Shown: piece by piece, positions 4,536 to 50,809 of the stretch
Layout: the number at the start of each line of letters is the position of its first letter
Position numbering within the stretch: the stretch's first letter is position 1
Origin: an uncultured Nitrospirales bacterium
GTDB lineage: Bacteria > Nitrospirota > Nitrospiria > Nitrospirales > UBA8639
NCBI GenBank assembly: GCA_958295805.1
Contig: OY282373.1
Coordinates: 901,001-965,000, forward strand
Direction of reading: 5' to 3'
DNA length: 64,000 nucleotides
Position numbers and translations under genes: made by a program
The notes under the pieces: model-generated
What the model was told of the DNA's origin: nothing
What the model saw: only the letters and a program-made list of their open reading frames with translations
Databases searched by the model: none

Positions 4536-4578
4536 CCTCCCTCTCCCCTGGCGGGAGAGGGCCGGGGTGAGGGGGAGA
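4536..4578. repeat. REP-like CTCTCCC...GGGAGAGGG palindromic repeat, copy 1
   Basis: An inverted repeat around CCCTCTCCCCTGGCGGGAGAG with a trailing GGGTGAGGG tail. Related copies occur at 6289-6324, 26046-26084, 50466-50500 and 51896-51933. It sits directly behind the stop codon of the 87-residue gene and could act as a transcription or mRNA-end hairpin. Confidence 0.65.
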
Positions 4579-25874: not shown

Positions 25875-26210
25875 GATAAGAGACTGGCAGTTCTACCATT
25901 CGATGATGAAGGATGGCAATAATGTGTAAGGGTCCACGACCATTGGCATTCGGAGAGCCGTTGGAGACGGAGTGGTCCCGGAGAGTGCTTGTATCAGCGA
26001 CGCAGGCAGGCGGGCCGCTTCACTTGGCACTGGCCAGGTCACTTTCCCCCTCACCCCTGCCCTCTCCCGCCAGGGGAGAGGGAGAAATTCTCTTCGAGGT
26101 GTTGCCGTACCTGTTAATCCGGTGCCTGCAACGACCTTCGACCAGGGGAGAGGGAGAACTTTCCTTCGAGGGGCAGGGTGGGGCTTTGCTTAGCATGACG
26201 GAGGCTGTCC
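25875..26210. other. Non-coding gap with REP-like repeats
   Basis: This gap contains a full CTCTCCC/GGGAGAGGG repeat at 26046-26084 (CCCCCTCACCCCTGCCCTCT then GGGGAGAGGGAG) and a half copy at 26132-26163. No gene is convincing; the open frames across it are low-complexity readings of the repeats. Confidence 0.55.
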
Positions 26211-42470: not shown

Positions 42471-42953
42471 ATGAAGAAGTTTGTCGCGATGTGTAGTTTA
42501 TTGACGGCCTTTGCCTTTGTCAGTGGCGACTTGGCCTTTGCCGGTGCTGAAAAGGATCCATTGAAACCGCGGGTTCCCAAGTCGGACCGAGGAAAAGCCA
42601 AGAAACTGAAACCACCTAAAGAGTTGTACAAGAAAACGAAAAAGGCTTCCGACACCATTGTGGCGGAAGGCAAGAAAATTTTTGAAGGGAAAGGTACCTG
42701 CGTCAATTGTCACGGGAAAAACGGCGATGGCACGGGGCCAGCCGGAAAAGTGTTGACTCCCGGCCCACGGAACTTCACCAACTGCAAATTTCACAAGAAA
42801 CGGAAAGATGGTGAATTGTTCTGGATTATTAAGAACGGCAGCCCGGGGACCGGCATGGTGTCCATGGTGCCTGCGACGATTACCGAAGAAGAAGCCTGGA
42901 AGGTACTGGCCTACGAGCGAAGCTTCTGTAAAAAGTGGCGAAAAAAGAAATAG
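42471..42953 (+). CDS. Exported c-type cytochrome, first of a tandem pair
   Basis: About 160 residues. ATG 42471 is preceded by a strong GGAGG. A signal peptide (FVAMCSLLTAFAFVSGDLAFA) leads to one heme site CVNCH (GKGTCVNCHGKNGDGTGP). Met ligands are likely in the GTGMVSMVP stretch. The protein is Lys-rich and ends SFCKKWRKKK. It is about 50 percent similar by eye to the neighbour at 43024. It is a small periplasmic electron carrier. A terminator follows at 42976. Confidence 0.93.
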   Translation: MKKFVAMCSLLTAFAFVSGDLAFAGAEKDPLKPRVPKSDRGKAKKLKPPKELYKKTKKASDTIVAEGKKIFEGKGTCVNCHGKNGDGTGPAGKVLTPGPRNFTNCKFHKKRKDGELFWIIKNGSPGTGMVSMVPATITEEEAWKVLAYERSFCKKWRKKK

Positions 42954-43023: not shown

Positions 43024-43512
43024 ATGGCGTACGTGCGCTTCACGACGTTTCGAACGTGGATCGTTGCTCTCATGGTCGGCTTAGGTACCATGGGATGGGG
43101 TCATGCTCTTGACCGGGTTCTGGCAAAAGAAGCTGAACCGCTACGCCCCAGGGTGCCCGTGAGTGAACGAAGCATGGCCAGGCACCTGATCGCTCCCTTT
43201 GGTTTGACAAGCACGGCTTCACCTGAAATTCTTGCAGAAGGAAAGAGCCTGTATGAAGGCAAAGGCATCTGTGTCTCGTGCCATGGAGAAACCGGATTGG
43301 GAAATGGCCCCATAGGCAGGCGACTGAGTCCCGGCCCTCGTGATTTTACCAATTGCCGGTTTCACAAGAGGAGGACGGACGGCGAATTGTTCTGGGTGCT
43401 GAAACACGGCATCCCCGGTACGGGCATGGTGCCCATGATTCCTGTGACGATTACCGAAGAAGAAGCCTGGAAAATCCTGGCCTACGAACGAACCTTCTGC
43501 AAAGAGCGGTAG
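43024..43512 (+). CDS. Exported c-type cytochrome, second of a tandem pair
   Basis: About 162 residues. ATG 43024 gives a signal segment (WIVALMVGLGTMGWGHA). One heme site CVSCH (GKGICVSCHGETGLGNGP). The rest aligns to the first protein through LSPGPRDFTNCRFHKRRTDGELFW, LKHGIPGTGMVPMIPVTITEEEAWKILAYERTFC. It begins 11 bases after the upstream terminator and has no visible strong ribosome site, unlike its neighbour. It is a paralogous electron carrier. Confidence 0.92.
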   Translation: MAYVRFTTFRTWIVALMVGLGTMGWGHALDRVLAKEAEPLRPRVPVSERSMARHLIAPFGLTSTASPEILAEGKSLYEGKGICVSCHGETGLGNGPIGRRLSPGPRDFTNCRFHKRRTDGELFWVLKHGIPGTGMVPMIPVTITEEEAWKILAYERTFCKER

Positions 43513-43679: not shown

Positions 43680-43690
43680 AGTGGGGTTGG

Positions 43691-43799
43691 CAGAATGACA
43701 TCTGGGGGGCAGAATGACATCTGGGATCAGAATGGCATCTGGAGGCAGGATGACAGGTTTGTTCAGAATGACATCTTCGCTCGGAATGACGTTGGGCAA
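43691..43799. repeat. Degenerate 18-bp tandem repeat, six copies
   Basis: Units begin at 43691, 43710, 43728, 43746, 43764 and 43782, each 18 bases (the first 19). The consensus is CAGAATGACATCTGGNNN; several copies differ at single bases. The 3' part of the motif echoes the GGAATGAC end of the adjacent palindrome. No open frame of note runs through. Confidence 0.7.
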
Positions 43800-46529: not shown

Positions 46530-47060
46530 TTGCACGGGACCATGCCCTGTGTTATACACGCCCGATGGAGTAACCGGTGCTTAGTGGAGAATAAAGAGAT
46601 ACCCCTCTCTTCTCTCCAATCACTCCCCGGGCACTCCAATCACTCCCCCCTTGAGGGGGAGTCGCTGACCGTCAAGCCGTCCGGCGCCGGCGGCAGCGGT
46701 GGGGGGTTCGCTGTTCCGGTTTTGTGAAGGCGAGAGGACTCCGCCGCCGTTCTCCATAATTGTGGTGTCAGCAGCGCCGGTCGTGCCCCCGGCGGATTTC
46801 GGCATCAGGGCGTGCCCCCGGCGGCTTCCCCCCACCGGCTCGACTGCGGGCTTCGCCCTTGTCTTGCCGACTCCCCCTCAAGGGGGGAGTGATGGATGAC
46901 TTGAACCTGATGGACTCCGTCAACTCCAATTCCCACGTCTACGTGCTGACGAAACCGAGGGCTGATGCCCCGGCCAGACCCCTGTCCCAGGACTATGCCC
47001 AGGCGCTGAATCCCCAACAACTTGCGGCCGTGGACGTGGTTGATGGCCCGGCCTTGGTCA
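46530..47060. repeat. Tandem duplication, unit 1 (about 0.53 kb)
   Basis: From TTGCACGGGACCATGCCCTG at 46530 to just before the same text at 47061. It contains the 253-bp element copy 1 (46640-46892) and the helicase 5' fragment. Unit 2 repeats it from 47061 and runs into the intact helicase gene. Confidence 0.85.
46640..46892. mobile_element. 253-bp MITE-like element with 25-bp inverted ends, copy 1
   Basis: Ends TCACTCCCCCCTTGAGGGGG (46640-46664, 25 bases) and its exact reverse complement at 46868-46892. Each end is itself nearly palindromic. Internal arms GGTGGGGGG near the left and CCCCCCACC near the right extend the symmetry. It encodes no transposase. The right end runs straight into the ATG of the helicase fragment (46892). 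Confidence 0.75.
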
Positions 47061-47104
47061 TTGCACGGGACCATGCCCTGTGTTATACACGCCTGATAGA
47101 GTAG
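46892..47104 (+). pseudogene. Truncated 5' copy of the UvrD-like helicase gene
   Basis: The frame from ATG 46892 reads MDDLNLMDSVNSNSHVYVLT and then matches the N-terminus of the helicase at 47485 up to GPALVIA. It then joins unrelated sequence (RDHALCYTRLIE) and stops at 47104. It lacks the P-loop and all helicase motifs. It arose from the tandem duplication. Confidence 0.8.
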
Positions 47105-47640
47105 CCGGTGCTTAGTGGAGAATAAAGAGATACCCCTCTCTTCTCTCCAATCACTTCCCCTTGAGGAGGAGTTGCTGATCCCGTCAAGGTTTAGGTGGCA
47201 CAACGGGCACTCCAATCACTCCCCCCTTGAGGGGGAGTCGCTGGCCGTCAAGCCGTCAGGCGCCGGCGGCAGCGGTGGGGGGGGCGCTGTTCCGGTTTTG
47301 TGAAGGCAAGAGGACTCCGCCGCCGTTCTCCATAATTGTGGTGTCAGCAGCGCCGGTCGTGCCCCCGGCGGATTTCGGCATCGGGGTGTGCCCGAGGCGG
47401 TCTCCCCCCACCGGCTCGACTGCGGGCTTTGCCCTTGTCTTGCCGACTCCCCCTCAAGGGGGGAGTGATGGATACCTTGTACCGATGGACTCCGTCAACT
47501 CCAATTCTCACGTCTACGTGCTGACGAAACCGAGGGCTGATGACCCGGCCAAACCCCTGTCCCAGGACTATGCCCAGGCGCTGAATCCCCAACAACTTGC
47601 GGCTGTGGACGTGGTTGATGGCCCGGCCTTGGTCATTGCC
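47061..47640. repeat. Tandem duplication, unit 2 (extends into helicase gene)
   Basis: The copy beginning TTGCACGGGACCATGCCCTG at 47061. It differs from unit 1 by a 44-base insertion (about 47157-47210, with a second degenerate CTTCCCCTTGAGGAGGAGTT end) and some point changes. The shared text ends at GGTCATTGC (47064 in unit 1, 47639 in unit 2). Confidence 0.8.
47216..47468. mobile_element. 253-bp MITE-like element, copy 2
   Basis: The same 25-base ends as copy 1 (47216-47240 and 47444-47468) and the same length. A few internal substitutions. Here the ATG at the element boundary (47468) is out of frame with the helicase because of a one-base difference just downstream. Confidence 0.75.
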
Positions 47641-49500
47641 GGGGCGGGGAGTGGAAAAACCCGGGTTCTGGTGTATCGCGTGGCCCGACTGATTGATCGG
47701 GGCATTGATCCGGCCTCCATTCTCTTGTTGACCTTCACCCGGAAATCGGCACAGGAAATGTTAGGTCGCGTAGGGCTGCTCATTGGTCCGCAAAGCGAGC
47801 GGGTGACGGGCGGGACGTTTCATGCCGTGGCCAACGCGTTGCTGCGTCGCTATGGCCGCGTCATTGAACTGGAGCCGGGATTTACGATTCTGGATCGTGG
47901 CGATTCCGAAGATCTGGTCAACCTCACTCGTGCGCAAATCGGACTCGGCGACACCGGCAAACGCTTCCCGCGCAAACGCACGATTGCGGATATTTTCAGC
48001 AAATGCGCCAATACCCTGCAATCGCTCGAAGACGTGCTCCTGAATGAGTATGCGCATTTCGGCGACTATCTGAACGAGTTGCTCACGCTGCAAAAGGCGT
48101 ATGACTCGACCAAGCGCCAACGGCAGTTGGTTGATTATGACGATCTGTTGCTCCGCCTTCGGGAACTGCTGACGGCCGATGAGCACGTCAGACGGATGAT
48201 TTCCGATACCTATCGCTACATTCTGGTGGATGAGTATCAGGACACGAACCCGCTTCAGGCTGAGGTGGTGAAGAAGATGGCCGTCACCCATGACAACGTG
48301 ATGGCAGTCGGGGATGATTCGCAATCGATTTACTCGTTTCGGGGGGCCACCTTTCGCAACATCATGCAGTTCCCCACGTTGTTCCCCGGCACACGGATTT
48401 TCAAACTGGAAGAGAACTATCGAAGCACGCCGTCCATCTTGGAATTCGCCAACGCCGTCATTGACCCCGCCACGGAAAAATATCGTAAAACCCTGTTTAC
48501 CCGGAAAGCCCCGGGTGAACGACCGGCCTTGGTCCAGGCAGTGGGAGAAAACCCGCAATCCCGATTCGTTGCGCAGAAAATCCTGGAATTACAGGATGAG
48601 GGCGTGCCCTTAGATGACGTCGCCGTCTTGTTTCGCTCCAGTTTTCACGCCTTCGATTTAGAAGTCGAGTTGTCCAAACGAGGCCTCCCCTTTGTGAAGC
48701 GCGGGGGGTTCAAATTTATTGAAACCGCGCACGTGAAAGACCTGTTGGCCCATTTGCGTGTCATCCATAATCCACGGGATACCATCAGTTGGAATCGGTC
48801 GTTACAACTGGTTGAAGGCGTGGGTCAAAAGCGGGCGAGGGATCTGATTGCACAAATCATGACCAGTGAGGCACCGTATGAGGCGTTGCGGCAAGGGAGT
48901 GGGCGGTCGGCATTAGGACTGCACAATCTGGCCGCGGTGCTCGAATCCGTGGGACCAGGGGAGCCTGGTTCGCTTTCCGATCACATCAAGCGGCTCTTGG
49001 AATATTATGTCCCGATTCTCAAAGACCACTACGATGATTATCCCAAACGGATCCGGGACCTGGAGCATCTCCTGGTCATGGTGGAACGCTACGACAGTCT
49101 GGGAGAGTTTCTGGCGGATGTCACCCTTGAACCACCTGATGAGAGCGTGACTGGCGTCGAAGTCCCGGACCGTGATGATGAACGGCTGGTGTTGTCCACC
49201 ATCCATTCCGCGAAGGGGCTTGAATGGCGGTGCGTGTTTGTGATCTGGCTGGTTGACGGGCGGTTCCCCTCCTCCTACGCCTTCACCACCGACGAAGACC
49301 TGGAAGAGGAGCGGCGGTTGCTGTACGTGGCCGTGACGCGGGCCAAACAGTCTCTCTACCTGACATTTCCCATACAGGTGTATGATAAGTTCACGGGATC
49401 GGTGCTCTCAAAACCCTCCCGATTTCTTGATGACGTCCCCGCTTCCCTGGTGAAGGCCTGGGAAGTGGTGGAAGAAGGTGAACCCTCTCCGTTGAGATAA
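47485..49500 (+). CDS. UvrD/PcrA-family ATP-dependent DNA helicase
   Basis: About 671 residues from ATG 47485. Superfamily 1 helicase motifs in order: Q-motif region LNPQQLAAVD, Walker A AGAGSGKTRVLVYR, motif II VDEYQDTNPLQAE, motif III GDDSQSIYSFRGA, motif IV-V text FKLEENYRSTPSILEFAN and STIHSAKGLEWRCVF, motif VI LYVAVTRAKQSLYL. It unwinds DNA in repair and replication. Shorter than canonical UvrD. The start has no clear ribosome site and lies 17 bases from a 253-bp element. An in-frame extension back to 47227 reads only the element, so it is rejected. Confidence 0.92.
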   Translation: MDSVNSNSHVYVLTKPRADDPAKPLSQDYAQALNPQQLAAVDVVDGPALVIAGAGSGKTRVLVYRVARLIDRGIDPASILLLTFTRKSAQEMLGRVGLLIGPQSERVTGGTFHAVANALLRRYGRVIELEPGFTILDRGDSEDLVNLTRAQIGLGDTGKRFPRKRTIADIFSKCANTLQSLEDVLLNEYAHFGDYLNELLTLQKAYDSTKRQRQLVDYDDLLLRLRELLTADEHVRRMISDTYRYILVDEYQDTNPLQAEVVKKMAVTHDNVMAVGDDSQSIYSFRGATFRNIMQFPTLFPGTRIFKLEENYRSTPSILEFANAVIDPATEKYRKTLFTRKAPGERPALVQAVGENPQSRFVAQKILELQDEGVPLDDVAVLFRSSFHAFDLEVELSKRGLPFVKRGGFKFIETAHVKDLLAHLRVIHNPRDTISWNRSLQLVEGVGQKRARDLIAQIMTSEAPYEALRQGSGRSALGLHNLAAVLESVGPGEPGSLSDHIKRLLEYYVPILKDHYDDYPKRIRDLEHLLVMVERYDSLGEFLADVTLEPPDESVTGVEVPDRDDERLVLSTIHSAKGLEWRCVFVIWLVDGRFPSSYAFTTDEDLEEERRLLYVAVTRAKQSLYLTFPIQVYDKFTGSVLSKPSRFLDDVPASLVKAWEVVEEGEPSPLR

Positions 49501-50403: not shown

Positions 50404-50809
50404 CAAAATTCTTTCTCCCTCCCCAATCCTCCCCTCTCCCTCCTGGAGGGGGCCAACCCGATACATTCCCTCTCCCTCCGGGAGAGGGCCAGGGTGAGGG
50501 TCTTCCAGGGTGACAATCTTCCCCTCTCAGTCCCGAACCTCATCCAACATCCCCGAGTGCCAAAGATGGTGGCCCCATACAAAAAACCCTTGATATGCAA
50601 CTTCTTTTTAATTTATCATAATCTATCTTTTATCATAAATAGCCGTTTTCTCAAGAAAATTCCCACGAAAAAGAGGAAGGCTATAAAATGGCATATATCG
50701 CTTGTGTAGTGCCCTACACGGCCTATTTCACATCTCCCGACGGTTCAAAATATCGATATTTCCAGTGATCACAAAAACCTTAATCTTTATTTAGTAAGGA
50801 GGAAAACCA
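50404..50809. other. Non-coding gap with REP-like repeats and an AT-rich segment
   Basis: A half repeat CCCCTCTCCCTCCTGGAGGG at 50431-50452 and a full repeat at 50466-50500 (TTCCCTCTCCCTCCGGGAGA and then GGGTGAGGG). From 50575 the base composition turns AT-rich and continues into the next gene. Confidence 0.55.
50466..50500. repeat. REP-like CTCTCCC repeat, copy 4
   Basis: Oriented opposite to the copy at 51896-51933. The two bracket the low-GC gene. Confidence 0.6.

Follow-up and report, generated by a model that had tools for sequence, protein, structure and literature searches.

A DUF559 nuclease gene between cognate hairpin ends: a candidate class of bacterial mobile element behind a duplicated palindrome in a Nitrospirales genome

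Two palindromic elements stand in tandem ahead of a UvrD/REP-type helicase gene in an uncultured Nitrospirales bacterium, and the locus raises the question of what these elements are and how they came to be there twice. The window analyzed here is a stretch of 64,000 nucleotides of this genome. An earlier inspection of its letters (the sequence-only reading) had described a tandem duplication of a unit of about 0.53 kb, carrying the palindromes and the helicase 5′ end, and this interpretation was right in part; what it missed is the nuclease-bearing family to which the element belongs. The two copies in the window are probably non-autonomous members of a palindromic mobile element whose full form carries a DUF559 nuclease gene, and they would have been duplicated afterwards at a TTGC microhomology. 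The features of the locus are the following.

46530..47060, + strand: tandem unit 1, 531 bp, with promoter-like boxes, element copy 1 and a truncated helicase 5′ end
46530..46558, + strand: putative sigma-70-like promoter of unit 1, TTGCAC-17-TATACA, assigned by sequence; a similar sequence stands before the helicase in congeners
46639..46893, + strand: element copy 1, 255 bp, non-autonomous, inverted ends at 46639-46664 and 46868-46893
46910..47104, + strand: truncated helicase copy, from the native ATG to a stop just past the unit junction
47061..47635, + strand: tandem unit 2, 575 bp, with promoter-like boxes, a left-end relic, element copy 2 and the helicase 5′ end that leads into the intact gene
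47061..47089, + strand: putative sigma-70-like promoter boxes of unit 2, TTGCAC-17-TATACA as in unit 1, assigned by sequence
47157..47178, + strand: left-end relic (family D4), 22 nt, 91% identical to the left end of the element, in unit 2 only
47215..47469, + strand: element copy 2, 255 bp, inverted ends at 47215-47240 and 47444-47469
47485..49500, + strand: intact UvrD/REP-type helicase gene (Pfam UvrD-helicase, 2e-70)

The tandem duplication is real. In a global alignment of the units (544 against 588 nt) 513 of 543 aligned bases are identical (94.5%), with one 45-nt gap, and the copies are offset, start to start, by 531 nt ahead of the element and by 575-576 nt from the element onward. The four-base microhomology proposed for the junction is present there (47061), as well as at the start of unit 1 (46530) and the end of unit 2 (47636). 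The extra bases of unit 2, formerly counted as a 44-base insertion, do exist, as the 45 nt absent from unit 1; because they contain the left-end relic, a deletion in unit 1 appears more likely than an insertion in unit 2. Part of these bases (47179-47209) also resembles genome positions 474983-475012 (93% over 30 nt), which lie inside other sequence. The first helicase copy is broken after GPALVIA, just as had been read, and continues with RDHALCYTRLIE to a stop. The right end of the element overlaps an ATG in both copies, as noted before, and this ATG is in the helicase frame in unit 1 only; since a 1-nt difference puts it out of frame in unit 2, the start used there is likely the native ATG at 47485. 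A short-range duplication with long inverted repeats is a spot where assemblies can fail, and an artefact would leave a single true unit; however, mismatches at 30 of the 543 aligned positions, and indels including the 45-nt gap, distinguish the copies, which lie in a genome assembled as a single contig of 2,904,372 bp, so that this explanation is extremely unlikely. The duplication is probably secondary to the element and an ordinary microhomology event.

The element itself is a palindrome, as proposed, with a size of 255 bp and perfect 26-base inverted ends in both window copies rather than 253 bp and 25 bases. As RNA, it folds much better than dinucleotide shuffles (z -6.9), and an Rfam scan of the window returned tRNAs only. 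Ten congeners have a similar region of varying length before the same helicase gene without the element. Further copies, the search for which had been suggested, were found both here and in 10 congeners, and the family is dispersed: the source genome contains a tandem array of four complete copies (2.091 Mb), another of five right ends (1.319 Mb), and isolated ends at two places (1.314 and 0.441 Mb). The five right ends (L032, G000:C1 1319649-1320311) are spaced by 149 nt, lack left ends and precede a gene. Another copy lies at 0.529 Mb, where both window-type ends flank a DUF559 gene; the window's right end matches this element at 97% and its left end at about 86%, and the nuclease gene sits in frame within a 702-aa nucleotidyltransferase-HsdS frame. 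By these shared ends, the window copies can be assigned to the DUF559 element family. The cores of the 2.091-Mb array are collinear with the 3′ end of the DUF559 gene (scores 30-32, reached by 0 to 9 of 500 shuffles). One of these array copies can in turn be aligned with the window core, which suggests that the nuclease-bearing form gave rise to the window element by shortening; a direct alignment search for a DUF559 remnant in the two window cores gave scores of 18 and 20, not above shuffles. Other repeats are also present in the window. A second palindrome type (GGGAGAGGG..GGGTGAGGG), with 121 sites in the genome, has solo ends at 4553-4573, 26048-26068, and 50480-50500, with 2 mismatches each; a 185-nt direct repeat (42754-42938 and 43325-43509, 79% identical) overlaps an ORF with a cytochrome-c-like CVSCH motif; and a tandem 18/36-nt repeat (43689-43776) lies beside another widespread-looking repeat (translated ...VIPATAGIQ...).

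The pairing of hairpin ends with DUF559 extends well beyond this genome. Within the genus, the same ends enclose DUF559 in six more fetched loci, one of them cut by a contig end. For a global survey, 84,980 species genomes were queried with six genus proteins and the best 80 of 119 candidates were taken; as two peptide patterns were used, the scan samples the closer relatives. Among these best 80 of 119, a matched inverted end pair (score of at least 15) borders the DUF559 gene in 56 of 78 testable loci from many phyla, and it does so in 20 of 28 testable loci of the genus set (a match was obtained at 30 loci, and none at L220), five loci being counted in both sets (L131, L133, L135, L136, and L140 on the global side). 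None of 339 other ORFs in the analyzed loci has such a pair, two of them reaching 13, and the score was at most 12 in 234 random windows. No matched pair was found at threshold 15 for 22 of the 78 global loci (best 80 of 119) and 8 of the 28 genus loci, nor at threshold 13 for 10 of 20 further Nitrospirota loci. The ends follow a common plan, with a C-rich/G-rich hairpin outermost, followed by a G-rich stretch such as TTRGGGTGAGGG or GGTGGGGGG; they read ATCACTCCCCCCTTGAGGGGGAGTCG or hairpin plus TTRGGGTGAGGG. YcjD of E. coli K-12 (L242) is a DUF559 protein beside a worn end pair. The Xanthomonadaceae elements occupy one shared locus and those of Azospirillum plasmids the same locus in four strains, and both therefore look settled; the Azospirillum case, considered as a polymorphic site, was discarded for the same reason. 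Flanking target duplications, another suggested check, were not evident at the six a-type DUF559 elements with both sides readable.

The sequence of the ends tracks the nuclease subfamily. When the four end types of the genus were placed on the DUF559 tree (using the 18 loci of clear type among the 20 that have end pairs), only 3 changes were required, which is the minimum, against a shuffled mean of 9.8 and with 0 of 200 shuffles as low; single genomes can hold two end types. Over 70 loci, protein and end similarity are correlated (Mantel rho 0.27; 0 of 2000 permutations as high), and the correlation persists in the 55 loci that remain once the genus set is removed (rho 0.21; 1 of 2000), the five duplicate loci and L203 having been excluded from both the count and the test.

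The DUF559 protein is predicted to be a PD-(D/E)XK, Vsr-like nuclease by its fold and its conserved acidic residues. A structure model built from 43 DUF559 sequences (pLDDT 87.9) is closest to 3hrl (Z 16.6, rmsd 0.8, 92 aligned), followed by I-Bth0305I (Z 12.3, rmsd 2.2, 92 aligned), and also resembles Vsr (Z 9.8, rmsd 2.0, 97 aligned). All 43 sequences have E24, E64, D66, and H70, and 41 of them have D53. A profile search of the PDB gave 3r3p at E 0.0014, with enterotoxin-B rows, taken as chance, at E 0.007 and above; since these come close to the 3r3p row, the link to I-Bth0305I rests on the fold comparison. Median dN/dS values of 0.21 (15 pairs), 0.135 (15), and 0.151 (3) are low, and thus indicate that the protein is kept by purifying selection. 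The available text of earlier work had placed YcjD in the PD-(D/E)XK superfamily (PMC1189080), and a DUF559-containing Vsr-like protein of Caulobacter is described, in the text accessible to us, as a trigger of the SOS response (PMC12907096).

Palindromes and nuclease genes also occur together at the level of whole genomes. Among 14 genomes of the genus, the palindrome of the window was found in the same 11 that hold any DUF559, and the reversed pattern in none. The correspondence by type is looser: five of these 11 genomes (G005, G006, G007, G010, and G011) have a-type palindromes and no a-type DUF559 among those typed, and G003 contains 25 palindromes of the other type and no DUF559. Across 197 Nitrospirota genomes, the commoner palindrome occurs 1895 times and its reversed control 17 times, and the 69 genomes in which DUF559 matches strongly (E under 1e-15) account for 1752 of the 1895. 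At least five palindromes are present in 30 of these 69 and in 8 of the other 128 (Fisher 7.6e-10, phylogeny ignored), while the canonical palindrome is absent from 16 of the 69. The RAYT family, Y1_Tnp, shows no such association in the phylum, being present in 28 of 38 palindrome-rich genomes and 139 of 197 overall (p 0.70, phylogeny likewise ignored). In the genus, it was detected in 5 of 14 genomes and is absent from 6 of the 11 that bear palindromes; the source genome has one weak match (2.6e-6). One Nitrospirota genome (G090) has 360 palindromes and 13 matches to DUF559 but none to Y1_Tnp; of six copies fetched from it, one reached an end score of 15, with an A/T-rich match.

Many of these elements reside inside reading frames that remain open. 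Among the best 80 of 119 candidates, DUF559 and its surroundings share one open frame with a host protein in 15 of 80 loci. Seven of them use the same site in hsdS, in Nitrospira, Binatota/Binatia, and Latescibacteria records, and the other hosts are hsdM, a type ISP enzyme, a DUF1156 methylase, valS, metG, lipB, ygiQ (in a contig that starts just upstream), and aroA-NUDIX. The host genes at L131, L132, and L137, named by eye from the frame sequence, we take to be hsdS. Further in-frame cases in Nitrospirota concern hsdS (L255, L262, and L263) and hsdM-type genes (L254, L256, L259 and, by reading, L257), the end scores of L256, L257, and L262 being just 12-13. Relatives can lack the element at the corresponding position: the hsdM site occupied in L254 is also filled in one relative (L279) and uninterrupted in ten, which read LWFLDKGKQxTPRADKVLFLDARH or near variants and are about 76-89% identical over aligned flank pieces, two further matches (L284 and L286) being too short to judge. 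Both filled copies keep the frame and have no evident target duplication. A different arrangement was seen in L258 (G236:C15:47500-51100, positions 582-2921), where DUF559, without matched hairpin ends, belongs to an intein within a DNA methylase (TIGR01443, 19.4 bits against a cut-off of 15.6); the N-terminal part of L258 is presumably intein-like. Intein blocks were detected in this locus only, the sole case scanned for weak matches, and no intein family was found at E 0.001 in the other frames scanned with NCBIfam. In E. coli, ycjD was also considered as a possible empty site within one species, and 3362 of 5426 genomes cover at least 80% of the query. According to the available part of one report, the gene replaces eefRABCD of other strains (PMC12817139). 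As three strains fetched from among those matching the fabI side only carry an efflux operon at this place, it is not a clean empty site and was set aside.

From these observations we infer that the DUF559 nuclease mobilizes and spreads the element by acting on its own ends. A full-length member would consist of two inverted, hairpin-forming ends around one DUF559 gene. The nuclease would recognize ends of its own type, probably folded into a hairpin or cruciform, and nick or cut there; host repair would then copy or join the element into new sites without target duplication, and short copies would be moved in trans. One such short copy may have landed between the promoter and the start codon of the helicase gene, and the block of promoter, element, and gene start would later have been duplicated at the TTGC microhomology, giving a truncated upstream copy and an intact gene downstream.

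Several other explanations have to be weighed against this end-directed transposition. The most substantial is homing, in which DUF559 cuts uninterrupted sites in hsdS, hsdM, and other genes, repair copies the element in, and the ends are a tolerated boundary. The homing endonuclease I-Bth0305I and Vsr are the nearest solved folds after 3hrl, the same hsdS site is filled in records of Nitrospirota, Binatota, and Latescibacteria, one DUF559 lies within an intein, and VSR-type intron endonucleases are known from phages, as far as the accessible text goes (PMC11878797). Pure homing would nevertheless not be expected to yield so many unrelated sites, nuclease-free short copies in new places, and ends that follow the nuclease, and the common hsdS sites could equally reflect the transfer of whole restriction loci. 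As an account of the family, homing is therefore regarded as unlikely, and end-directed transposition is favored over it because the enzyme is tracked by the ends as well as by the sites; given the common hsdS and hsdM sites, homing or whole-locus transfer may still apply to part of the family.

A lower probability is given to the possibility that the palindromes are REP-like repeats moved by RAYT (Y1/HUH) enzymes, with DUF559 as a frequent passenger enclosed by two such repeats. In the available text on REP systems (PMC3733652), the repeats do form hairpins, occur singly or in tandem, and can enclose a gene when inverted, and the weak Y1_Tnp match of the source genome would fit; but the incomplete distribution of Y1_Tnp in the genus, its lack of association in the phylum, its absence from the genome with 360 palindromes, and the fact that end type follows DUF559 subfamily make this reading quite improbable. 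Still more doubtful, to the point of being very improbable, is that the palindromes are terminators or drifting repeats and that DUF559 merely accumulates in the same islands. The G+C-rich hairpins do adjoin genes, and small DUF559 genes are often near repeats or restriction genes; the pairs, however, are inverted and sequence-matched, many lie inside reading frames, and the other ORFs of the analyzed loci lack them, so the terminator and hitch-hiking readings were rejected.

The element class appears to be new. The REPtron enzyme and tag were not found, intein blocks were detected in one case, and the parent with these ends appears not to be an insertion sequence; homing may account for part of the family. 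In the open-access literature, as far as titles and accessible text reveal, no link of DUF559 to palindromic repeats was found, none of the 14 papers that mention DUF559 joining it to repeats in its title, and a prior description is possible; a literature search by sequence motif returned nothing useful. The broader proposal is about evenly balanced between being right and wrong: that DUF559 nucleases define a new and very widespread class of mobile DNA, in which one PD-(D/E)XK (Vsr-like) gene lies between cognate hairpin ends, and which seeds many GGGAGAGGG-TTRGGGTGAGGG-type bacterial palindromes, inserts without target duplication and persists in frame in host genes, essential ones included. 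If true, an enzyme would be assigned to a very common bacterial palindromic repeat for whose mover no name was found, another nuclease superfamily would join those that mobilize DNA, and a role would be suggested for DUF559 (YcjD), a widespread family of ‘unknown function’. The valS, metG, lipB, hsdM, and hsdS copies, among others, would then be natural cases of a selfish element tolerated in frame without splicing domains.

Among known systems, REP sequences, or REPINs, and their RAYT enzymes offer an obvious comparison. As far as the available text describes these REPtrons, they share with the DUF559 elements short hairpin repeats in solo, paired, or tandem form, a nuclease-type gene between inverted copies, and non-autonomous copies, some of them inside genes (PMC3733652). 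They differ in their enzyme, which is Y1/HUH instead of a DUF559 protein of PD-(D/E)XK fold; here it is DUF559 that lies between the ends, and no Y1/HUH (RAYT) gene was found between the palindromes or to account for them. Besides, each end of a DUF559 element joins a long G/C hairpin to a G-rich block, the abundance of their palindromes does not follow Y1_Tnp, and the GTAG (or CGTC) tag by a 20-40 bp hairpin, as defined in the accessible part of the same source (PMC3733652), is absent at the element borders. Rickettsia palindromic elements (RPE) similarly read in frame through host genes, but they measure about 150 bp in the text available (PMC10969869), whereas the DUF559 elements carry a nuclease gene; the tests made here revealed no relation between the two. 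MITEs of insertion sequences are also short inverted-end elements found in many places and apparently derived from a longer one; here, in contrast, the parent with the same ends carries a DUF559 nuclease gene and no transposase gene was found in it, and no target duplication was seen in the cases read. In E. coli, YcjD resembles the family in that it is a DUF559 protein adjoined by a GGGAGAGGGTTAGGGTGAGGGG palindrome and by an inverted pair of 25 nt that is 80% complementary; it differs in being a single, worn copy. Finally, I-Bth0305I and the Vsr-like intron or intein nucleases have in common with DUF559 the nuclease fold and a mobile context, and one DUF559 does lie in an intein; unlike them, most DUF559 copies have no intron or intein around, and their elements possess cognate hairpin ends, short nuclease-free derivatives, and many different sites.
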